From Enchytraeus crypticus (taxonomy: Eukaryota; Annelida; Clitellata; Enchytraeida; Enchytraeidae), in NCBI GenBank assembly GCA_905160935.1, contig CAJHZI010000514.1, forward strand, positions 1,819,501-1,883,500: a DNA stretch of 64,000 nt. The letters are read 5' to 3'. The notes under the pieces were generated by a model. It made no database searches, was not told the origin of the DNA, and saw only the letters and a program-made list of their open reading frames with translations. Positions 30,101 through 48,100 of the stretch are shown piece by piece; the first letter of the stretch is position 1; every line of letters begins with the position of its first letter. The translations under genes were made by a program, and so were the position numbers.

Positions 30101-33100
30101 ATAGGGGCAAATACGTATATCAAAGGCTGCACAAAATTTACAGCAAGCCTGTTTAAAATACGGCTATGTCAATTATCAATATTCAATAATTATGCATTAA
30201 TTCTTCAATAATTAACTTACAATTTTCATTATTATTTAATTACTATTCATTATCGAATTACCGTAACGCCTTTAATAGTTCATCTAAATTTACACTTTGT
30301 AAAGTAGGGGTTTGTTTACAGTGGTTGGATTTCTGAATTGTTGTAACACTTGCCTGATAAACAGCAAGCCACGGGTTCGAATACCAGTACGAACCGTTTC
30401 TGAGAGCATCCAATATTGCTAACCAAAACTTAAAATAAACATTTTTATAGTTAGTAAGTAGTAGGATTATTGGGGGGCTGGCACATTATGATTTTTAAGC
30501 ACAACCTAAGATTAAAACCTAGCTAAATTTCCTTTTTAGCCTTGCCCTGCCTTGATTAAGCATACTGAGATGAACGTTAATCATTTCAAGGCTAAAATAG
30601 AATAGCCTTAAAACATAGCTAAATTCTATTTTAGCCTTGATGCATAAATGTTCCATGAATATTAAGCACAGACATGCCTTGAGTCTTGCTCATTTCTATT
30701 TTCTGCCTTAAAATTTACACCATTGCAATTGAAGCATAGCCTTGCCTATCAATAATCTAACACACAAGCGTAAAATCAAGCACGCCCACAGCTCACGAGG
30801 ACAAAAACGATTTCAATTCACATCATTTCATCCACAAGGCAGAGACAAAATGATTTTAACAGGCATCTTTAGCCTTGATACCTAAGCTTATATCTATATT
30901 AGCCTTGTCATCAACGTATGTACTGAAAGTATGATAACCATTGTTTCATCAGCACAATTATGGTCACAGCCTGTCTTAATAGTAAATATAATATTGAAAC
31001 ATTCATTTAATGATTGTATATTTATGACATCCATTAACAATCTCTCCATTGTTTCTTTTAAAGAAATTTAGATCATGTTTAGTTTCTTTAGCGGCTTCAT
31101 ACATCGACCGGAATTCAATAACTTCACCAGTGATGGTATTCTCCAATCTTACAGGTTTAGGGTTATTTCTTATACCTCTCAAGTACTCATGCCTCTGGTC
31201 TATAATCTTTTTTGGTTGAACCTCTTTTAGTGGATATTTTCTTGGTCTTCCTCTTGCTCTTCTAGGTTTGTCTTCTTCATTTTGTGGATCAACCTCTTTT
31301 AGTGGATATTTTCTAGGTCTTCCTCTCTTTCTTGTTGTCGTATCTTCATCCTTTGGAGGAAACACTTCTTCTCTCTTCAAAAGTCCATTTTCAAAAGTCA
31401 TAAACAACAACTCTGTTTTTCCAGCACGTAGAGCTGGTGTGATTTCAGCATCGATCAACATTTGTCTCAATTCGGCGGCCGAGTATTTCATTTTATATAT
31501 GTAAGAAAAAATATTTAAATAAAATTCAAAATTTACAAACAATAAACAAATAATTTTCTCGTTTGTAAATGTTTTATGTTAAAATAATAATTGCAAATAA
31601 TAAAATGTTAGACACCGTTGATGGTACTACGCTTTCAAGTAAACTGAAAGCATTTTTAATTAGAAAGCTTGAAGAAAGGCAAACAGTTGTTAAAAAACTA
31701 AAGAAAAAGCGAAAGATTGTAAAAACACTTTCCTACACTACCGCGGTGGCTTCGATCGTAATTTCCGCAGTGCTAGCTGCAACTGCTACAGCTGTTGTAA
31801 TTCCACCCGTTGCTATAATAGTGTTATCCACTTCAAGCGGTATATTGACAGCCTTCGCCAATAAATTTAATTTTCAAGCTAAAAGTAATAAACTAAATAC
31901 AGAAATTGAAAAACTAAATAAACTTAATGAAAGATTTGACTTTGTTGTCTCCTGTAACGGAAATCTTGCTGAGGCAGCCTATAATCAGATTATTTCTGAA
32001 TTTACATAAAAATTTGTTAATACATTTATTAACGAATTTAAATATCGCAATTTACGGCTACACTTCCATCACAAACCTCATTAGTAGAGAATCTGAAACG
32101 TAATGAAATCCTAAATCAACAAACGTTAAATTTTTTCGTAATATCAATTTCAAGTCTGATTTCTTTCGATCTGGATCTAGATCTCTTACAAGTTTTGAAA
32201 TAAATTGCCTAAATTTCAATAAAGGTGTACCCTCTTCAGGTGTTGCTGTTAAATTAGCGCGAACTAGAGTTGTTTCCAAGTCACTAAACATATTTCTCGG
32301 TAGTTTTTCAATTATTGTTAAAAGTAAACATTTCAAATCAGTTGTTAAAACTGAAAGAATTCCTTCAACGTCAGAATTAATTTCTTCATTATTAAATAAT
32401 TTACTATATTCTAAGGTAATATTTTGCAAATGATTATATTTCATAAGAAATATTTCTCTGTAATTAATTCGTAGGCCTTGTTCTCTGGAATATTTTGATA
32501 TAATGGTCAATACATGAGAACAAATAGCCATTAATTTCTTCAAATCAACATTATCTTTCATGCGAGCAATCTGTAGATACTTTTTGTTTAGCGCATCATA
32601 TCTTTCACTAGGGAAACCGACATTAAAAATTACATTATCCTTCATATCTAAATCTCCGTTCATTGAACCACCATTCACACTGAGTTTCGTATCAATATTT
32701 TTTTGTAGAGCAATGTCATTAGCAACAACATCTCGTTCTACATCCTTTAAGATATCTAATCTTAAATTTTGTCCAAATTTGTTAACAAAACTATCGCAGT
32801 ACCTCTTTGTAACGACATCCAAATCACTTTCTGGAGGTTGCTTAACATTGAAAATTCTATTGTTGCTCATATCAACATCTCCATTCATTGAACCACCATT
32901 CACACTGAGTTTCGTATGAATATTTTTTTGTAGAGCAATGTCATTAGCAACTACGTTTTGTTCTACTTCTTTTAGGATGCCTACTCTCAAATTATCACCA
33001 AATTCGTTAACATAACGATCGCAGTACTCCTTTGTGATGACATCCGCATCGGTTTCTGGAGGATGTTTAACATTTAAAATTCTATTGTTGCTCATATTAA

Positions 33101-36100
33101 TGTCTCCAGTGATATCTCCTCCAGATTTGTCAACTTTTGTACTGTCGAGTCTATCAACAAGCTTGACAATTGGTCTGAAAACTGAGTCTACATGCTCCAT
33201 CAAATCACCAGTTGTTGAATGCGATTTGCCACCAGTTTTCGATATAGTACTCATATTTTAAATACATAAGATAAAAGTTTATAATAAAAATTTAAATGTT
33301 ATATAAAAATGTCAAAGTATACAAACTACGGTGTAACGTTGACTAAAGGTCAGGTCCAAAAACTAAAGAGCGCGTGCGATCATGATAGAGAGGTTAAAAT
33401 ACGAATATTAAAAAAGAATTTGTCGGGTAATACGAATCTTCCTCTCACCCAAACTCAAATTAATAAAATTAAAAAGGCTACATCTGGAATAGAATTGTGT
33501 CTGAGTAGAGCACAATTAAAGTACATGGAAAAGAATGGAGGATTTCTGCCGTTGTTGGCAGCAGCCATTCCCGCCATCGTGGGAGCTATAGGTGGATTGG
33601 CAGGTGGAATTAGCTCGGCAGTGAATTCGACTAGACAGACAAATGAATTGAAGAGACATAATCAAGAATTGGAAAACATAACCAAGCAACAACTCGGCGC
33701 AGGCTTAATCAGCGACGCAATAGCTCCAATCCCCGTTATAGGTAAAACGCTATCAAATGCGTTGAAGAAATTTGGACTCGGTGGATGCGTCAAGAATTTG
33801 AAAGGAGCTCAGTGGGGTAATGGATTGTATTTGGAAAGAGGTGGATCAGGAGTTTTTTTAGAAAGACAGGGGGAGGCATAAACTTCCCCCAATTTTTAAA
33901 CTCATTCAAATCTCTTAAACCGCTAAGCAACTTTGATATAATAAAAAAATGTAAAGAGCTAAATGTAAAAAATTTCAAAGGTGTATTCATGCGAGATGAG
34001 CTAAAGGGATCAGTTAGTAATAACGAAAGTTTAATTCTTAATATTGATGACAGCGAAGGGAACGGGACCCATTGGGTATTTCTTTATAGTAAGAATGGCA
34101 AATGTCTATATTTTGATAGTTACGGCTTCATACCTCCATCAGAAGTTCAACATTATTGTAAAGGAAAGGAAAATTATTTTAACACTTTTAAAATTCAAGC
34201 ACCAAACGAAGTCATCTGCGGTCATTACTGTATTTACGTGCTATATAAACTGAACAATGGGAGTCTATTCAAGGATGTATTAGATGAATTATACGAAAGA
34301 AACAATTTAAAATAATAACTACTACATAAAAATGGTAGACTTGAATACTAACTATTCGAAAATTTATCAAAAAATTTACGGTAGCAACTATGAGAGCAAG
34401 CATCACGATATATTTCCTAAAAATATATTTATGATACTAGCTGGCAGCACCGGTTGTGGCAAGACAAATCTAATGATGAACTTCATTATGAAAAAATTAG
34501 TGTACTATGATGATATGATGGTGTACACAATGACACCCGAACAAGACGCGTATAAATTCCTTCGGGATTGTAATGATGAATCAAGGAAGAAGTCTAAAAC
34601 AAGTCAAGATATTGTTACTTTTCACAACCCAGATGATGGAATAGTTCACCCTTCTGAACTCGATAGAAATAAAACACATATTGTAATATTTGATGACGTC
34701 ATGAATGAAAATCAGAAAGATATGACAGATTACTTCTGTCAAGGTCGACATAATAATGCGAATGTATTCTATTTATGTCAGAGCATTCATAAGCTGAAAA
34801 AACATGGAATTCGACAAAATGCTAATATTTTTATTCTATTTCGACATGATAAAAAATCGCTTAAATATTTCTATGACACTCACGTAAGTGGTGATATGTC
34901 ATTTGAAGAGTTTGAAAAAATATGTAATGAAGCTTGGATGAATAAGCACGGTTACGTTGTTGTAAATCTGTGGGAGGAACCTGAATGTGGTAGATATTTG
35001 TTAAATTACAATGCAATGTACATACCTGAAAAATATCTAATAATACCTAATAGTACCTAATAATACCTAATAATATCTAAAAATACCTAATAATACATAA
35101 AAATACCTAATAATACATAAAAATACCTAATAATACCTAATACCTAAAAATACCTAATAAATAAATATATGTATGTAATAAAATGATGGTGGAGTTTGAT
35201 ATTAACCGGTATAACAAGGCCAAGAACGAAGTCAAACAAATGTTTCTGAATGAGAAACTAGGCAATCAACAGTCATATGAGAGTCAAGCAAAGTTATTCA
35301 AACCGTTAATCGACACTACAAAGGAAACGGCTCAAATTCTAGAACAAAAGATTGTCGACAACAAACAAAACTTGAGTGATATTTTAGTTCCCTTTACTAA
35401 TCAATTGATGCGTTCAAATGATCAGAGAGAGGCTATACAGGCAATGCCATTTTATGATTCACCTATTCCTGAACGTGAATCCACACCAAGGAGGGATCCT
35501 GTAATTATTAATTTAGACAAGAATCTCAATGAAAGTGATCGAGAGAATCTAGATCTGCTCGACCTGAAACTTCCAAGTGAAGTCTATGAAAATAATGAAA
35601 TTGAAGCAACATTAAAGGAGATTCAAACGCATAATAGACGAATAGGGCAGTTTTTAGGAAACAACAGTAAAAAGACTCCAGCTGAGAAAACGATATGCGA
35701 GTCTCAACAGAAAACACTGGAAAAATACAAGAGCATATTGACTAAGGTAAAAGCAGGGAGTGAACTCGTCGGAGAAGGACTTAAGAAGAAGAAGAGAAAA
35801 CTTGTAATGCCTGCAGGTAAACAAAAACGTGGACGAGGTAGACCAAAAGGAGATCAAGTTGTACATTATGAAAATCCAGATCAATTGGTCCATCTGCTGG
35901 TGGAAAATCTTGCAGCTCTAGAAGCTGGAAACAATGGAGCATACAATACCGCAGTTGGTATATTGGATGAACTGCTAAGAATTGGTGCAATCACCAAGGG
36001 GAAATATGATGATATATATAAAAACCATTTCGAAATTCTCTAAAATATCCAGTTTAAAATTTAATCCTGCTATAAAAAAATGGCGAAATTAACTCTGTCG

Positions 36101-39100
36101 AGCACGTCAACAGATTTTACTACATATCTGCACCCTCCAATAAGTTTGGATCCTAAGAAAAAGTATGAAGTAGCATTTATATCTCTGATGACGTACAATT
36201 CAATTCCTAACATCACGGAAGTCAACAATAAATTTAAATATTCCACCGACGGCGGAAGTACTTGGAAAATAATCACGCTTTCAAAAGGTGCTTACGAATT
36301 AAAAGATATTAACGCTACGATTCAATGGGAAATGCGAGGAAACGGTGACTACGATACAATTAATGAAAAATATTACATAAATATAAGTCATTTAATTTTC
36401 AAAACAATTTTGACTATATCACACGAAAAGTACATGGTTGACTTTGGAATTGACAATTCATTAGGGTCTACTCTAGGATTCACCGATGAAAAACTGTCAA
36501 ATGGAACTCATCTGTCTCCCAACATAATTGATATAGAAAAAGTCAATTCGATACAAGTCCATTGCGATATTGCTATTGGTAACTATCTTAATGGTAAAAG
36601 ATCTAATGTGATACATACATTCACACAGAGAGTAAATCCAGGCTATAAAATCATAGAGAATCCTACTCCTGAATTGATATTTTTACCAATAGTTAATAGG
36701 CTTGAAATTGATAGTATAAAACTGCGGCTGACCGATCAAGACAACAAACTTATCGATCTGATGGGTGAAAGACTTACTATTGTATTACTAATTAGAGAAA
36801 AATCTAATTAAAAATATATTGTATTTAGTAAAATGATTGTCAAAGAGAAATGCAAAGCATACAGTTCAAAACAAACTCTGGTACATGGACGGGGATTTGT
36901 CGATACACTGAAAGATATAGGTTCGTACGTCTATCAGAATAAAGATTTAATTGCAAAGCCAATGTTAGGAGCAGTAGGCGATATTGCTGCATTCGGTTTG
37001 ACAGAGGGCGGCAAAGCATTAATTAGAAAGATAGCAAGCAAAAACAGTCGTCTAACTCCAGAATCGGAACAGATACTAGAACAACTACAAAAATCGGGCA
37101 GTGGATTAAAACGATTTTAATTAAAAAAATTACGTACATATATAAAATGGAAACTGAATTGCCAAACGAAATTTTCACACAACCATCGTCAATAATTGTT
37201 GACAATAGTGTAGAAAGTTGTCAATACTCGTCTTTTATTCCACAGACTAAAGCCGACTTTGATGCTAATGGTCATGTTATTGAAATTGATATTCCTGCAA
37301 GTGATTCGTATTACAACCCAGCTAAAAGCTTCCTTAAAATAAAGGGAAATTAGTTCGAAATGACAATGGCAATGCTTTTGATAGAACAGCTCAAATAGCT
37401 TTGATAAATAATGCTATTCCATACCTTTTTTCTGATATTGAGTATATTCTAGGAGGTAAATCAATTGAAATATTACGTTATCCAGGACAGACTACGTCAA
37501 TGTTGGGTTATCTGTCTTATCCTGACGATTTCAATAGCAGTGCGGGATTGAATCAATGTTGGAGAAAGGACACTAATGTCGGCGCAGTATCCTCCAAATA
37601 TAGACAATCTCCAGCAGTTGCACCAGGCGGCGACATTGCTGCCAATCTTTTTACACCGCAAGAAAATCCAGATTACAATGAAGGATTTGCGATTCGCCGA
37701 CAACTTCTAATGAACAACGATGCGATAGGTCATTTTTCATTCAACATTCCATTTTCGCATCTATTTGGATTTTCCGATTATAACAAAGTACTTTACAATT
37801 TGCGACATACGTTGCGACTCACTAGAACGCCTAGCACATCAGCAATTCATAAAGCGAATAACGTTTTTGAAGGTAAAGTTTCACTAACGGATATTAGGTG
37901 GATGGTACCAAGAATAAAACCGTCAGTTGAAATGATAACTTCACTGCGAGAGTCTGTTGTAAGTAAAAGGAAAATTCCAGTAAGTTTTAGCAGAAGAACT
38001 GACCAAAAAACTATAGTTACGCACGATGTACAGGAATTTGAATGGATGATCAATAGAGACGCTGGAAGTAAAAAGCCTAGATGGATAATTGTTGGATTTC
38101 AAACTGACAAATCAAGAACACATGAACAAAATCCAGCTGTGTTTGATCACCTTAACTTGACTAGTGCTTTTGTTGAATTGAATGATCAGAGATATCCTGC
38201 AGATGAACCGAGAATAAACTTTGCTACAAATGACTATGTAGATTTCTGCGCTATGGCGGATGAATTTAAGAAGGAACACTTTGGTTTTAATCATTTAATT
38301 GGAGGTACACAGATCGATATGATGAATTACAAAAAGCTATTTCCACTTGTAGTCTTTGATGTAAGACATCAGAGTGAAAGAATCAAAACTGATGTTATGA
38401 ATATGAAACTTAATTTTAAATTTAGTCAAAATGTTCCAGAACATACTCATATGTATGTTACGATACTTTCCGATAGAGTGATGTACCTAACATCCGATGG
38501 TCAGACTCCGATTATTATAGATTAATAAGTTTTCTAATATGAAAATTATGTTATAAAATTTTATAATGTAATTTAAAAATGTACTGCTTGAAATGTAAAA
38601 GGAAAACTGATTCTACACAGACGCAGGAAAGGTTAACTGCTAATAATAGAAAACAGCAATTTGCTATTTGTGGAGTGTGTGGAAGTAAAAAGTCAAAATT
38701 TGTCTCGGGTCAGGGTGTGTTTAATAATGTGTTATCGGCAGTTGGAAATACAGTTGGAGAACTACATTTACCTGCCAGACGTGGAGAGTACGTACCTAAC
38801 GGTTCATTTAATAATCTCAACAAGTATTCGTACTGCGGTCCAGGCACAAAGTACGAACTGAGAAATCGCGAAGGTTATCAGGGTATAAATGAGTTGGATG
38901 GAATGTGTAAATTGCACGACCAGTTTTATACTGCAAATACCGATACAGCGAGCAGAAATATAAGCGACGAAGCTTTGGCTCATCGAGCATACGAAATTGC
39001 TAATGATTCAAGATTTGATAGTGCACAAAGAAATATGGCTCGATTTGTATACCACATCATGAAAAATAAGGCAAAGTTTGGTCTTGGTGTTGAGTCAAAA

Positions 39101-42100
39101 AACGAATAGAGGGGTCCAGCGAAGAAAGAGGTTTGAAGCGAAACGTTGGACCCTTTGAAGAATTGGCTAGAGAATTACACAAACCGATTCGCAGAAAATT
39201 TACAAGACGACAAGTTCACGTGTTTGAAGTTGATGAGATATGGGGAGCAGATTTAATCGAAATGCAGGAGGTGGAGTAGAGTAAATAAGGGCTACAGATA
39301 CATGCTTAACGTCATTGATGTGTTTTCCAAGTATGCGTGGAGCATTCCGTTGAAAGACAAGAGAGGTGAAACAACTGCAGAGGCATTTAAACAAATAGTG
39401 GCATCGTCGGGAAGACAGCCTAAACATTTATGGGTTGATCAGGGTAAGGAATTTTACAACAAAAACTTGGATGATTGGTTAAAGAAACTTGATATTAATA
39501 GATACTCTACATTTGGTGAACATAAATCAGCAGTCGTCGAACGATTCAATAGAAGTATCAAGGAAAAGATGTGGAAAAGATTTACTGCGGAAAATACGAG
39601 AAATTGGATTGATATGATTGACGATTTAATTGCAGAGTATAACAACACGAAACATTCGACTGTAAAAATGACTCCAATTGAGGCGAGTAAAAAGGAAAAC
39701 GAAGCATTTATAATTAACAGTAGGAAGTATAGAAATTTGGAAACGAATCGAAAATTTGAGGTTGGCGATAGAGTTAGAATTAGTCGGATTAAGGGTGTGT
39801 TTGAAAAGGGATTCCTACCCAATTGGTCTGAAGCGGTGTACAAGATATCCAAAGTGCAATACACATCCCCGATCACTTATAAATTGACAGATTCGTTAGG
39901 CGAAGAGATAGAAGGAGGTTTTTACGCAGAAGAATTGCAGAAGACAAATCAAGAAAATTATAGAATTGAAAAGGTTCTACAACGGAAAAAGATTAAAGGT
40001 GTGGAACATGCCTTGGTTAAATGGGTGGGTTACAACAAGAAATTTAATGAATGGATTCCCATATCTAATTTACAAAATTTAGATTCATAAAAAATTTATA
40101 TTTAAATATTTTCTTGGACTATATAAAATGACAACTACAAACTCAAACTCAGAAATAATCAAGTTTCAAAATCTCAAAGTTGAAGATAAATATATTGTAA
40201 TGGGATTGAAACCTATACACACAAAATTCGGCAAATCATATATTCTGTACGTTATACAAAATGAGGGTGAAATCCCTAAAAAAATGTGGTCCACAAAAAA
40301 GATTAATGAATATATTAAAGAGGAAGAGTTGGAAATGGACCATGAAAGATTTGAGTTTACGGTAAGAGAAATCAATAACGGAAAATATAAGGGAATGCTG
40401 TATGCAGAGATTGATGGTTTCAATACAGACAAAGATGATCCTGAAGTTGTTTGGTTTTAGAGAATTATTTTGAAACCAAATGTGGTTTGAAAATATTAAT
40501 AAAAATTACATTTTATATATTTAAGCTATAATGTTTGCCCCCCTCACGAGGGGGGCAAACTTTATCCATAAAAATATGTTTTATATATTTAAGCTATAAT
40601 GTCCGTAAGCTAGAGTGTGCACGCCATCGTCCATGATTACTCGCTTATCGTCATCTGCGCTGAGAGCAACTTTATTGACTTCCTCAGTATAGACATCGTG
40701 CAAGCGTGATCTAATAACGTTCATGCTTCTAGAATGGTAATTTTTCTCAAACAGACAATCTCTGTAATCATCATGTGTTATTGTCCTCTCAACAACATTC
40801 TTCTTGACACCTTTACATTTCTTGTGCTCCTCATCTGCTAATTTGTAAGAGTACAACTTTGCTCTCAATCCAACAAATTCTTCAATTTCCTTTCCACAAG
40901 CTTCGTCTTTAAACATTCCAATGACTTTCTTGTTAACTCCAGTCTTAATGCCTGATGGATGAACTCTCGGATAATCGCTAGTGTCAAATCTGCGTTCGAC
41001 GTCATTAGATATGTCTGCGTAAAAATCTTCCGTCTGTATTTCGTACATCAACGAATCCGTGTCTGTAAACAACAGCTTGGCTTTATCATTGTATTTTTCC
41101 TTTATGTAATTATAGTGAAATTCGTACATTAAAGTTTTACTTAAATCTAATATTGCCATACCTAGGTAGATTGGCTTATTATACAGCAATTTAGTTTTTC
41201 TCATGTGGACGCCGACAAGATTTTCGTCAAATATCACTGTTCGGTCATAGTACGGCTTTGCAGCCAATTTAACAGCCTTTTCTCTATTATCAACCAATCT
41301 GAAATCTATCCTATTTTCAATATTCTCCATAGTTTTTCCAAAAACGCTATTGTTCATTAGTTTAAAGAAATCTTTCTCAAAGTCGTTGGCAGCCTTAGTG
41401 CGTAGCTGTGTATTTAAATCGATGTAAGTTTTAAGCCATGGACTTTCTTCAAATTTTATGCCTCTGTGTATTTTGGTAATTTTCAGTCCCATACTTTCGT
41501 ACAGTTTCAAATTCTCGTAATGTAATGTGTACTTTGTTTTATCATTCAAATTCGGTATCAATTTCTCTACTTTATTCACTTTCACAATTTCGGGGGCTAA
41601 AGGATAGTCATTATGCAGGTCGTGCAGCGCTGCAGGATATTCCAAGTCAACTTCGAGGATACACTTCATTTCTTTCCAGTTCTCCAGTTCTTTTTCTGTC
41701 ATCCATTCGAACCCGTGTGTGGGTAGGGGCTTACTCATCGAGTAGCCATAAAGGTTATTCGAATCCAGGTATTTGATAAATTTGGAAGGATCATTAACGT
41801 TAAAATTCCCATCCATGTATTTATTATTAGCTTTTGAATATCGGTTTGAAATAGTGCTTACACCACCTCTTATTCCGTGCTTAATCATCAGCAGCATATC
41901 GTAATCGCTCAACAATTGGAGTTCAACTTTAGTTAATCTTAACGCAGCATCCCAAGCTAGTCCTGGCGAGGTGTAGTACCACGCAGGATCCAATTTATAG
42001 TGGGTCATACATACATCTCTAAAATTTTCAAAGACATCTGCTAGTAAAAGCACATCAGATATATTGTACAAGTCGTGATAGTCTCGAAATGTTTTACAAC

Positions 42101-45100
42101 CAAACTCTTTCCAAACAGTCTCTGCGTGTTTATAGTCTTCATCACTGATATTGGTATCGTTAAGTTTTGAGTAGAAAGCATCCTTTGGCGGTAGTTTAGT
42201 TTCATCAAGTCTTTCTGACGAACTAACATAATCGTACGGGTAAACTCCTTTTCTCAACAGCAAATCCAATTGCTTTCCAGAATACTTACTTGCAATATTC
42301 TTACACTGATCTTTACTTAGATTCTTTGAAAGTTTCTCAAGACTCGAAGCCATAAATCTAAAGCTATCGATAAACCGCAATTCTCGTTTCACTAGTACTT
42401 CTTTACCTGTTTTATTTATAAACTTGTCAACCAGCAATTCCCTAGAGAAACTGATGTACTTTTCTTCGTTACACGGAATACAATTAATTTGTCCACCTGC
42501 CAACTTCTTTATAAATAAGTGACTGTCGTATCCTGATAAATTGTGAAAAACTACTGGAAAGAATTTTGGAATTTTGTATTGTAAATTACATTTATCGTGT
42601 GCTGCTCCTCGGAATTTGCCAGATAGATGACAGTGGTCTCTGACACGATCGTTACCCAACACTTTTTCACAGATATGACATGATTTTGCGGCCTTGAATT
42701 TCTTCGCGGCAGATTCATCGAATATCATTGGTTTAGAAAACTTGAACTGATTGTATATTTCTTTTATATTTTTCTCTAGAGTATCAAAGAATATTTGAGC
42801 AACATCATCATTCTCATTCTTTGCAGTAAAAGTGACTGGAGCTTGCGAGTAAATGCTATCATCAAAACACTTGATGTAATAACAGAATGAACTAGGTGTA
42901 TGTTTCTGGTATCGGATAGTGGTTGACCTGCTTGGATCCGGCTGTCGTGTATCAATCTGTTTAATAAATGACTCGAAATCTGCGTAAACTATGAATGGTA
43001 CTCGCATCGATTTTTTGTAGTGATTGAATTTCATAAACGTTCCAGGTTCTGGCAACACTATTTTTTGAGCGTCGTGTTGTGAATAATATTCAGTGTGATT
43101 ATTAAGAGCATTTTCACTTGTGAAACCGTTTAAGCATCGTCTGCAGTAATGCATTGCATGGTGATTTCCTTCTATTGACATCAATCTATTGAAGTTCTTA
43201 ATCCAGCAGTAATGATTATTATCACCTTCTGATATGAGTAACAAATCTACTACGTTTTGACTACTTAACGTTGAAATCCTTAATGGTATTAATTCTTCTT
43301 CTTTGGCCCACGCCTCTAGCTTTTCATATCCAAACACATGAATTGATACATTGTTATTCTTTTCAAATTTATCAATATCTTTCAAATTAACCGGAAAATC
43401 AATACCATTCCAGTTAAATTCTTCAGCCTGCTTCTTTAATTGTTTATCAATGCGTTGTGGATTTTTTTCAACAGGATTTAAGGCTCTAGCTATACACCAT
43501 TTGAAACACTGATCGTCTTCATTTTTCATATTTATAATAGCCTTTTTATCAGCTAATTCTTCAGGAAGAGGAATGTAGGAGCTACCTCGTAGTGGCTTGT
43601 ATTCTACAGTATTTATTTCTAATTTCATCACTCTGCGAAATCTCCAATTACTACCCCGCATCTGAAAATTAGCCATTGACTCTAGCATTTTACGTTTAGT
43701 CTTTTCATACACCTCTGCGGTATCTGTGGATGGTAAAATTATTTCAGTTTTTGAAAGAAAAGGGGCGTCAGACGATGTAATTTCCTCAGTCTTCAAATCC
43801 ACCCTTTCCATTGTACATGTGAGTGTTAGATTAACTTTTGACTGAGGGTTGTTGTTTAATACATTTAACACTTTTGTCTGAACGCTATTGAGAAATGACA
43901 CTGCATCCACTCCATTTCGACCATCAATGGTATATTGCTTAGTGAATCCCTTTAAAGCTGATTTTGTTTCTTTGATTTCATACGTATCCGCCTTAGACTT
44001 GTTGAATATGGTCTCAACTTTAGACTTTAGTGTCTTATACGATTCTCTTACTTTGCTTTTAATGTTGCTTGGTAAATCGCTTACCAGCCAATCCCAATAT
44101 GATTTGATAGTTGCCATTACTCCAGTCTTAATTGGTGCAAGAATCTCAGTTTTTATATCAGGCACCGGTGTGTCGAGCAAATTGCCATAATGTCTCTTGG
44201 GTGATGGTTTATATTTAGTTGGAACTAAAATCGGTTGTTGAATATCTGGTACAGGAGAATTGAGCAAATCTACAACACCACCGATTGTTTGTGATGTCGA
44301 TGACAACGCATCAATAAGCTCTGCCTTGCGAAGAGAATAGTATCTTTTAATACCTCGTTGCTTCGCGACAAGTCGCAATTGTTTCACCGTTTGAGTTTCC
44401 ATTTTATATATAAGAAAAAATATTTAAATAAAATTCATATATTTTTAATTTTTATTATATTTTCATTTTCTTTTCTATATTTATGTTTTTGCTATTCACG
44501 GAATGAGTACCACTCCACTACTGAAGCTCAACTTTCCAGCTGTTTAACGTGTAGGCTGCAGCAGAGTCTACTCGTGTATACTCTGCTGTCTAATAAAAAG
44601 ATTATAGCTGCTGATGTGTAACTCAGTGTACCACGTACATTAGCTTAAGACACAGCGAAGATGGCTATGAATTTGATATTTGGGTAACAGTAAATATATT
44701 GATTGCTTCATAAAGTAACTACATTTATGAATTTTGGAAAGTATACTGTAGAAATATACACGTATAGGCTTTTCACTTTCGCTTTCCACAGAGTTACAAC
44801 ATCTGAGCATCGGCATCGAGTAGCTGTGTCTTTTTACTAGAGCTTTTTACAGCGCTCAGTATATATAAACATCCAGCTGTTATTTTAAGCTAAGTATCTG
44901 AGAGTATACTCTGCTGTCTCGGGTATAGGCTTTTACATACATGTATAGTTTCTTTAAGGTAGCTGAACAGCTGCGTTATTTTAACCCGACCGTTTACAGC
45001 TAGGCTAGGAGAATGGTTATCATACTTTCAGTACATACGTTGATGACAAGGCTAATATAGATATAAGCTTAGGTATCAAGGCTAAAGATGCCTGTTAAAA

Positions 45101-48100
45101 TCATTTTGTCTCTGCCTTGTGGATGAAATGATGTGAATTGAAATCGTTTTTGTCCTCGTGAGCTGTGGGCGTGCTTGATTTTACGCTTGTGTGTTAGATT
45201 ATTGATAGGCAAGGCTATGCTTCAATTGCAATGGTGTAAATTTTAAGGCAGAAAATAGAAATGAGCAAGACTCAAGGCATGTCTGTGCTTAATATTCATG
45301 GAACATTTATGCATCAAGGCTAAAATAGAATTTAGCTATGTTTTAAGGCTATTCTATTTTAGCCTTGAAATGATTAACGTTCATCTCAGTATGCTTAATC
45401 AAGGCTGGGCAAGGCTAAAAAGGAAATTTAGCTAGGTTTTAATCTTAGGTTGTGCTTAAAAATCATAATGTGCCAGCCCCCCAATAATCCTACTACTTTA
45501 GTATATAAATGTATAATGTACAGTAAGATTATTAGATCATATGCTGCAAACTGCTACCAATGGTTCAATGTTTAATATCATATAGTATTCAATTGTTATT
45601 TATATTGCAAATGCAATTGGTACTTTTCTTTTTATATATACAAATGAATATTAAAATATTAACAATAACCTGATTTTAAAATCTACATAAAATGTAGACT
45701 AAAGTTATATCTGGTTATTAATATAAAAATAAAATTAGAGAGTACGAGAAATCATTTTCTTACATAGTCAAATTAAAACAAAATTCAGAAAGAAAAAATT
45801 CTTTTAAATAATAAATGCTAAATAAGAATCCTTACAAAAATCAAAAGTTACAAAATTCAATAAAAGCAGAGAAACATCAACATACGAGAACTAACACTAC
45901 TCACAAGCACGGAACTCTGATGGCACGACATTTGTTTGTACACCTCCCTAAAGTGAACAATTTACATAATTTATTACACAATAAAATAGACCTAATTAAG
46001 TTCCGATGTTCGAATAGGAAACATTAAATGATAACAGCACATACGAATGCTCAACAATGCTCAATGACAAATATATGAATAAAAATGCACACTGCAGTAA
46101 ATTAGCTCGCGATCACCTATCACATGGAACTACTTTCCACAAAAGTTCTTTTTTCAGAAAAAATTATATATAAAGTGATATTCATGGCTTAACCATGCAA
46201 GAATATTTGCACACGAACCTTTAAAACACAGCGTTTGATTAACTACTTTCAAATTTCTAAGATAATTGAGCAAATTTAATAAACACAAAAGATAGATTAT
46301 TTATTTATTTTCAAATATTTTCTCGCATATTGATGACTTTAATTTAATTCCAGTAAATTTACCTGAATTTTAGTCAGATTAACAGTTGTTACTTCGCCGA
46401 GTGTTAGATTATGTGACTTCATTCTACAAAAAATGCTAACGGTTTTACATAACAAATAATACAAGAATCAGAATCGTAAAATAACAAAAAGTACAAATTT
46501 ATTCAACATCTTGAGTAGACCAATAAAATTGGTATAGTCTTTGAGCTTTTTAGTTTGCTTAAAAATACTTTTTATAACAATTTTGATACTGAGGCAAGTG
46601 TGCAAAACTAGGCCAAACTCTTTACCAGCCATATCTGAAAAGAACGAAGTAGACTTAACTGGCAGTGCGTACTAATTAAAAAATAATCTGTACGATTGAA
46701 TGATTGAATTACATAAAAGCAGGGACTTTTATCTGTGAACCAAAGGAACCCAGGAAAACTTTCATCAACAATATAATTTTAATGCAATTTTAATATTACA
46801 GATACTAAATCTTTCAAAAGAAAACGTTAACATTTAAAGTTTTAAACATCTAAAGACAAACAGCAAGCAGTGTACCAGCTGAGACCTACCTATTCTCTTC
46901 ATAATCCCTAAAGCTGAGAAATCTGTTGATAACGTGTCTCTGAAAACAAAATTCATCATATCCTAATCACAATGATTTTATAATCTATGTATCACAGATT
47001 AAAACAATGATTATAAATAATACTACACTGTAATCCATAATATCATCAAGCATATGAAGTCAATGGCACATAATGCTAAAGTATAAGTTAAAACTCTCCA
47101 TCAATTACAATCAATTCAATTGTAATCAATTCAGTATGTGCCAGGTTCAAATCCCAATTAATCAGTACACTAAGACATCAAATCATCAAAAAAACAAAAT
47201 AAAAAAATATTATGAAACAATAAAATAAAAAAGTAACAATACAATGGTGGATAAGAAAACTAACCAGCTTTTCTCCTGCAGTATTTTCTAAAAATAGCGA
47301 CCCATGCCCGGGCTGGCCACGACAAATTATATTGATCCCTACAGAGAAATTAAAAGAATAAACATTAACATATATTATCTGGTACATTGCTACCATTAAG
47401 TTAGGATTTTTTCAGGTTAAATCACTCACCTGAAATCAAACAATTTTATGGCTTGTTTGCTAGTATGACCACTACAAACCAAAAAGCAAACTATTAGGTC
47501 ATACAGTCGAAGGTATGGCATGAAAATATGACATGATGATTATATTTAATGTAACGAAGACAAAGGTTATAAGAGTGACTAGGAATTACAGGGATGTAAA
47601 CATTACATTGAACAGTACGCGATTGGAACAGGTAAGGTAAGAAGGTTGTGGTATTTTGATCACACCATCACGGATGATGGGAAGTGTAAAACGGAAACCA
47701 AATGTAGAATTGCACAGGCAAAAGAGGCATTCGGAAAGAGAAAAGAACTACTAAAAAAGGCATTTGGAAAATCACGAAGATAAAGATTGTGAAAACATTG
47801 GTTTGGTCCACATTTCTGTATAAATATGAAAGGTCGACATTAAAGAAAGAAGATATCACAAAACTTAAGGCATTGGAATTGTGGTTATAGAGAAGGATAC
47901 AAAAGATCAATTGGACTGACAAAATTACCAAATGAAGAAATTCTTATATGCCATGGAACTGCCGTTAGGCAGTGCACTAGAAGACAGTCCAAGGGCTCCC
48001 AAGTTATGATACAAAATGCTGAAAATGAAAAATTTTCATTTAGAGGCCAATTGGTGACTACTTCTTTTAATGTTTTGATTGCCGTGTAATACAACATAGG

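Follow-up and report, generated by a model that had tools for sequence, protein, structure and literature searches.

Two candidate -1 ribosomal frameshift sites precede the protease and the integrase of a Polinton from Enchytraeus crypticus

Programmed -1 ribosomal frameshifting at two sites, one for the protease and one for the integrase, is by far the best reading of a Polinton element that we analysed in the genome of the annelid Enchytraeus crypticus and, judged from its sequence, very probably the correct one. At both sites a slippery heptamer in phase with the upstream gene was followed by a structure and by a -1 frame that stays open into conserved coding sequence. The first site (cassette 1) ends a gene for a hydrophobic protein resembling adenovirus protein X (PX) and leads into an adenain-like protease; the second (cassette 2) ends a gene with a PLA2 domain and leads into the integrase. 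The signals, their phase and the open -1 frames could be read directly, together with their conservation and a compensated stem, and the family of the analysed copy carries no usable start codon at these junctions.

The window, that is, the whole 64-kb stretch of DNA analysed, contains one complete Polinton/Maverick, bounded by inverted repeats (TIRs) of 487 nt each that are 100% complementary (Table 1). Pfam identified a DJR major capsid protein, an A32-like packaging ATPase and an rve integrase core with a chromodomain, which, with the TIRs and the 6-bp target duplication, mark a Polinton/Maverick (adintovirus-like) element. It also assigned DUF5679 and Phospholip_A2_4 to the PLA2-domain gene, and at cassette 1 it gave sub-threshold matches to adenovirus protein X for the upstream gene and to adenovirus protease for the downstream one. 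The hallmarks of a retrovirus (Gag, reverse transcriptase genes and LTRs) were not found in the element, the gene content of which is that of a Polinton. For an ORF of 1,280 aa on the reverse strand the Pfam search returned Rho_N and Endonuclease_7 and no polymerase family; by its DTDS motif it is presumably a polymerase. Another reverse-strand gene (32058-33257) with repeated MSNNRI..N units, perhaps fibre-like, had no confident Pfam family, and an AT-rich array of CCTAATAATA-like units (35030-35170) separates the ATPase gene from the one that follows. Of 14 element gene starts, taken over both strands, six have TATAAA directly 5′ of the ATG and several more have AT-rich variants of it. We considered a separate promoter for each gene, and found the pattern too uneven to be given much weight, though it is absent at the protease and the integrase.

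Table 1. Positions of the element, its boundaries and the two candidate frameshift cassettes within the window.
Feature	Position	Strand	Details
Whole Polinton, TIR to TIR	30457..45497		15,041 bp; from inverted repeats and reading of flanks
TSD TTAGTA	30451-30456 and 45498-45503		6-bp duplication read in flanks
Left TIR	30456..30942	+	tool coordinates
Right TIR	45012..45498	-	tool coordinates
PX-like hydrophobic protein gene	33309..33881	+	stop TAA 33879-33881; Adeno_PX E 0.0012, below cut-off
Cassette 1 slippery heptamer T TTT TTA	33854..33860	+	codons GTT TTT TTA, in phase with PX gene
Cassette 1 spacer GAAAGACA	33861..33868	+	8 nt
Cassette 1 stem-loop	33869..33890	+	arms GGGGGAGG 33869-33876 / CTTCCCCC 33883-33890
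Adenain-like protease ORF, -1 frame	33821..34315	+	first ATG 33989
PLA2-domain gene	38579..39109	+	stop TAG 39107-39109; ends TCA AAA AAC GAA TAG
Cassette 2 slippery heptamer A AAA AAC	39097..39103	+	in phase with PLA2 gene
Cassette 2 spacer	39104..39108	+	5 nt
Cassette 2 stem-loop, 13 bp	39109..39156	+	arms 39109-39121 / 39144-39156
Integrase N-terminal part, -1 frame	39094..39279	+	W-x-x-D Asp codon 39250-39252; first ATG 39262
Integrase remainder, rve core and chromodomain	39257..40090	+	other frame in window copy

A first-pass annotation made from the letters alone had proposed cassette 1, with a phased T TTT TTA, an 8-nt spacer and a stem of eight pairs with a 6-nt loop around the upstream stop, and we read each of these parts as claimed. 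The stem comprises 8 bp, one of them G-U (-15.5 kcal/mol), and its loop, CATAAA (33877-33882), contains the PX stop codon. The same annotation called the upstream product a hydrophobic Polinton protein; its likeness to adenovirus protein X was seen only below the Pfam cut-off. Chance is a poor explanation for this arrangement. An in-phase heptamer with an equally strong stem within the last ten codons arose in 46 of 20,000 dinucleotide shuffles. When the encoded peptides were held fixed and codons were drawn from the usage of the element, the probability of the heptamer was 0.067 and the stem appeared in one of 6,000 draws; the rare codons GGG (5% of glycine codons in the element) and CCC (8% of proline codons) sit where the stem arms require them. 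Over the 15 reading frames of the element we listed 21 in-phase heptamers, and the only gene ends that combine one with a stem of at least -15 kcal/mol in strength are those of the PX and PLA2 genes, the third strong-stem entry being the same T-run read in the protease frame. The capsid gene was tried as a third site, since in the window it changes frame at 37330-37355 and has an in-phase GGGAAAT near 37345. It was rejected: no stem was found there and the gene is uninterrupted at that point in 10 of 10 other copies (three of which differ by another single base near 37426), so that the frame change is a private lesion.

The protease frame is exactly -1 relative to the PX gene and open from the slip point, as the first-pass annotation had stated, and conserved parts of the enzyme are encoded ahead of its first ATG. 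Residues I40, C44, F52 and K53, invariant among 35 aligned protease sequences, all precede this codon. So do two helices (22-27 and 37-46) and most of the strand 52-57 in the predicted structure (mean pLDDT 86.6), the methionine being residue 57. In that model the first 15 residues of the -1 frame are disordered, and the chain becomes ordered from about residue 20, directly after the slip peptide. Its best fold matches were adenovirus proteinases, with 1nln first (E 5e-8). In profile comparison an S273R cysteine protease entry (E 8e-6) came ahead of adenovirus proteinase (E 7e-4), and the Pfam Peptidase_C5 match stayed below cut-off. Similarity to adenovirus proteinase was found in both sequence and fold, by which we class the enzyme as an adenain (Peptidase C5). 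Among 156 database proteases examined, 11 carry at least 46 residues before the core, and six of these 11 contain FFR or FFS, which is what translation of such a site in the -1 frame would yield.

When the host genome (524 Mb in 802 contigs) was searched at the DNA level, 346 candidate places were obtained, and the 40 of them that were scored were all 99-100% identical. Counting the window's own place, 38 of these 40 carry the 37-nt cassette 1 without change; of the other two, L056 is altered in the stop and L060 in the heptamer. This pattern indicates a recent burst of copies, and the form that multiplied is thus the one without the ATG. Mosaic copies, such as L039 and L041, also occur in the host genome. 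More divergent lineages were collected with P0129, a protein 63% identical to the window PX protein, a search which yielded 595 candidates, of which 150 were scored. We read 100 junctions, 90 of them from these 150 places and 10 from matches of another search. In 10 of the 14 lineages compared the PX gene is 72-79% identical to that of the window. A search of viral contigs found no close relative, only one distant virus (L001), and none was found in a search of other genome contigs.

Conservation of cassette 1 was assessed on 23 representatives chosen by eye after the 100 junctions had been seen, a choice that leaves out near-duplicates, decayed-looking copies and the distant family L161-L168 and favours intact cassettes. 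Of these 23, 21 carry the heptamer string; it is in phase in 20, L120 having an extra T, and 20 have an 8-nt spacer. The exceptions have spacers of 12 nt (L071), 9 nt (L087) and 7 nt (L170), the first lying outside the 5-9 nt that we took as the proper distance of the downstream structure. Stem changes on both sides, each seen in one lineage, were GGTGGAA/TTCCACC (L079), GGGAGAA/TTCTCCC (L080) and GAGGGAA/TTCCCTC (L116). L071 has a shifted stem, GGGTAA/TTACCC, and in the L120 type the loop is longer and the stem has an additional pair. Covariation was quantified in 20 lineages, including L113 and L120 with one T more each. Pairing held in 119 of 120 cells, and three pairs had changed on both sides, a number reached by none of 500 shuffles and with no two-sided pair in slid registers; further stem pair types were reached by 19 of 500. 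Inclusion of the longer-spacer L071 and L087 lowered pairing to 93.9% and left the same three pairs, which one of 500 shuffles equalled, while slid registers then showed up to two two-sided pairs.

The codons of the slip site were analysed in the 18 of 22 lineages that could be parsed. Phenylalanine is encoded by TTT in 18 of 18, and leucine by TTA in all 17 that have leucine there, the eighteenth having lysine. The codon before the phenylalanine ends in T in 17 of 18, though it encodes Val, Leu, Ile or Pro. In the neighbouring GLYL motif, a few codons upstream, the leucine codons vary (TTG/TTA and TTG/CTA), with isoleucine at the second position in L170. By this comparison the slip site conserves codons, not amino acids. 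The first-pass annotation had asked for such a comparison of sister copies and other Polinton families, and in the representatives the heptamer, the 8-nt spacing and the compensated pairing of the stem all proved to be conserved.

The junctions also include departures from this pattern, which count against the frameshift reading. Across all 100, 46 keep the heptamer in phase with the PX frame as far as the slip, five of them (L096, L118, L121, L133 and L158) with a single base lost from the stem; 16 (L101-L115 and L120) have a one-base change that joins both frames, 34 have no in-phase U-type heptamer and four did not parse. The 34 comprise the eight copies L161-L168, L085 and L087 (both with an ATG), L169 and 23 others, among which eight have a run of six T and several have stops or further indels. 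L129, L137 and L156 lack the ATG, have both frames open and carry a substitution in the T-run; they are among the lower-scoring matches of the P0129 search and are probably old copies. In L161-L168, a canonical in-phase heptamer and stem were not found at the protease junction in any of the eight copies, and an ATG-less -1 protease follows a run of seven A. The single element of this family that was followed has cassette 2 (L176).

One alternative is termination-reinitiation, in which the protease would start at an ATG that overlaps the PX stop (as ATGA) and the lack of this ATG in the window family would be a simple loss. The window has ATA at 33878-33880 where close relatives have ATG, and six of the eight closest protease homologues (P0001-P0003 and P0006-P0008) begin with Met exactly at this position, so the ATG-started state does exist in relatives. 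Moreover, an in-frame protease ATG lies near the PX stop in 11 of the 23 representatives, and there the fusion is not the sole route to the protease. The combination that the first-pass annotation had named as speaking against its own reading, an ATG with no canonical heptamer, does occur in two of the 23 (L085 and L087). However, nine of these 11 ATG-bearing representatives retain the heptamer. A further 11 representatives have no ATG near the protease start, and all of them carry the heptamer string, 10 in phase; in L170 the first ATG comes 16 residues in and the heptamer is present. Across the ATG-less lineages the start position reads ATA, ATC, GTA or TTA, with no consistent near-cognate start, and it is the ATG-less window family that has recently multiplied. 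Reinitiation at the PX stop would also leave the integrase unexplained, and we regard it as very unlikely to account for the protease.

The integrase provides the second case. Its first ATG comes after the aspartate of the W-x-x-D motif, which we take to be the first catalytic Asp of the rve integrase, and within the -1 ORF the rve match begins at residue 47, ten residues ahead of Met57. In the window copy the integrase frame is broken near 39270 (39262-39285); all 18 other copies that cover this point are unbroken, so the break is private to the window copy. Copies unbroken there can be read from the PLA2 gene into the integrase and lack an integrase ATG ahead of the first catalytic Asp. The stem-loop of cassette 2 has a 22-nt loop and a predicted energy of -19.9 kcal/mol, and the cassette was matched by none of 20,000 dinucleotide shuffles. 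Codon draws that kept the -1 peptide matched the stem in 28 of 4,000 cases; taken alone, this stem is therefore less striking than that of cassette 1. Eight stretches were fetched at the expected distance from the PX genes of other lineages, and seven of them cover the PLA2-integrase junction (L174 missed it). An in-phase A AAA AAC heptamer and a stem were found in all seven; L175 is identical to the window in cassette 2 and L172 differs by one loop base, while the other five clearly differ. Spacers across the junctions measure either 5 or 7 nt. The distant L176 has the stem GAAGGGGTC/GGCCCCTTT, in which, by eye, one pair differs from that of the window on both sides. L039 keeps the heptamer and the upper stem but departs from the window at six of the eight bases that follow the heptamer, and in L045 the last base of the heptamer is changed. 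The Polinton sequence of L045 stops abruptly just past the cassette 2 stem and is followed by repeat-like DNA.

An alternative at the level of transcription is that the polymerase slips on the T7 or A6 run and yields a share of mRNAs with a fused frame. One stop-free frame of 321-342 aa spans PX and protease in 15 of the 150 scored PX places (L101-L115), the two frames being joined by a single-base change located at the slip run or close to it, which recurs in several subfamilies; the database protein P0188 is such a fused frame, and the L161-L168 junction has its run of A7. Other copies have a run of six. We did consider an evolved PX-protease fusion, and read L101-L115, and likewise P0188, as homopolymer mutation or assembly error instead. 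Transcriptional slippage would not require a compensated downstream stem, each heptamer is canonical and correctly phased, and the A-run of cassette 2 is only six long, which makes polymerase slippage very unlikely in our view. Splicing that joins the frames is extremely improbable: TTTTTTTAG at the PX-protease junction resembles a 3′ splice site, with a pyrimidine run followed by AG, and adenoviruses splice heavily, but the exact phase, the mostly fixed 8-nt spacing and the compensated stem are not features of splicing, and cassette 2 has an A-run rather than a pyrimidine tract. The -1 frameshift reading of the PX-protease cassette, by comparison, draws support from the conserved heptamer, the spacing, the compensated stem, the conserved slip codons and the presence of a second cassette.

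Under programmed frameshifting, most ribosomes on the PX mRNA would stop at 33879-33881 and produce the PX-like protein, and a minority, held up by the stem-loop that lies 8 nt downstream, would move back by one base on U UUU UUA and give a PX-protease fusion. Likewise, a minority of those on the PLA2 mRNA would slip on A AAA AAC before the 13-bp stem and produce a PLA2-integrase fusion. We infer that ribosomes do shift, and in a ratio of this kind. The fusions may then carry the enzymes into the particle, where the protease would later free itself.

Both cassettes have close counterparts in retroviruses. The HIV-1 gag-pol signal consists of U UUU UUA, an 8-nt spacer and a simple GC-rich stem-loop, with the protease downstream in the -1 frame. 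Cassette 1 shares the heptamer, the 8-nt spacer, the simple GC-rich stem-loop and the -1 protease; it differs in belonging to a dsDNA element, in having the stop codon in the loop, and in pairing an adenain-type protease with a PX-like upstream protein. Retroviral A AAA AAC shifts combine a short spacer with a strong downstream structure, and the integrase is made downstream of the shift. Cassette 2 resembles them in heptamer, short spacer, strong structure and downstream integrase, and departs from them in its PLA2-domain upstream partner and in that the integrase has a cassette of its own. As to adenoviruses, the best match of the protease model is an adenovirus proteinase solved with an 11-residue cofactor, and the PX domain is weakly similar. 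Adenovirus core proteins and adenain are separate proteins made from spliced late mRNAs and are not known to form a frameshift fusion, unlike what is proposed for the PX-protease pair described here. The element resembles Polintons/Mavericks in its TIRs, 6-bp TSD, DJR capsid, packaging ATPase, protease and chromodomain integrase. It departs from them in that, in the window family, the protease and the integrase have no usable start and are placed behind frameshift cassettes.

The first-pass annotation knew of no description of such frameshifting in Polintons, a claim that has to be softened. The nearest description that we found is in the accessible text of a preprint (PMC11071296), where slippery sites are suggested by KnotInFrame for some Penton genes of adintoviruses, and 'a similar relationship' for Hexon-Adenain. 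This is also predicted -1 frameshifting in the same virus group, in one case with adenain; the gene pairs are different, and the accessible text holds no conservation or pairing test and no integrase cassette. Mentions of frameshifts in the accessible parts of PMC8097293, PMC10120064, PMC12567637, PMC6431247 and PMC5803895 concern mutations, assembly, or other viruses or elements, and those of PMC11071308 make no mention of frameshifting. According to the accessible portion of PMC8310308, the use of frameshifting is known from relatively few DNA viruses of eukaryotes.

Two conserved sites in one Polinton clade would show a dsDNA virus-like element dosing its protease and integrase as retroviruses do. 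We give about even chances to the broader proposal that this clade uses the logic of Gag-Pol twice, with protease and integrase made as minor -1 fusions, to a core-type protein and a PLA2 protein respectively, that fix their dose and carry the integrase into the particle. Delivery of the integrase into particles by its fusion is plausible to a similar degree; if true, integrase packaging of the retroviral kind would take place in a dsDNA virus-like element. Frameshifting at these sites could explain the late starts of many such proteases in automatic gene calls, and it would make the route of the integrase into the particle testable.
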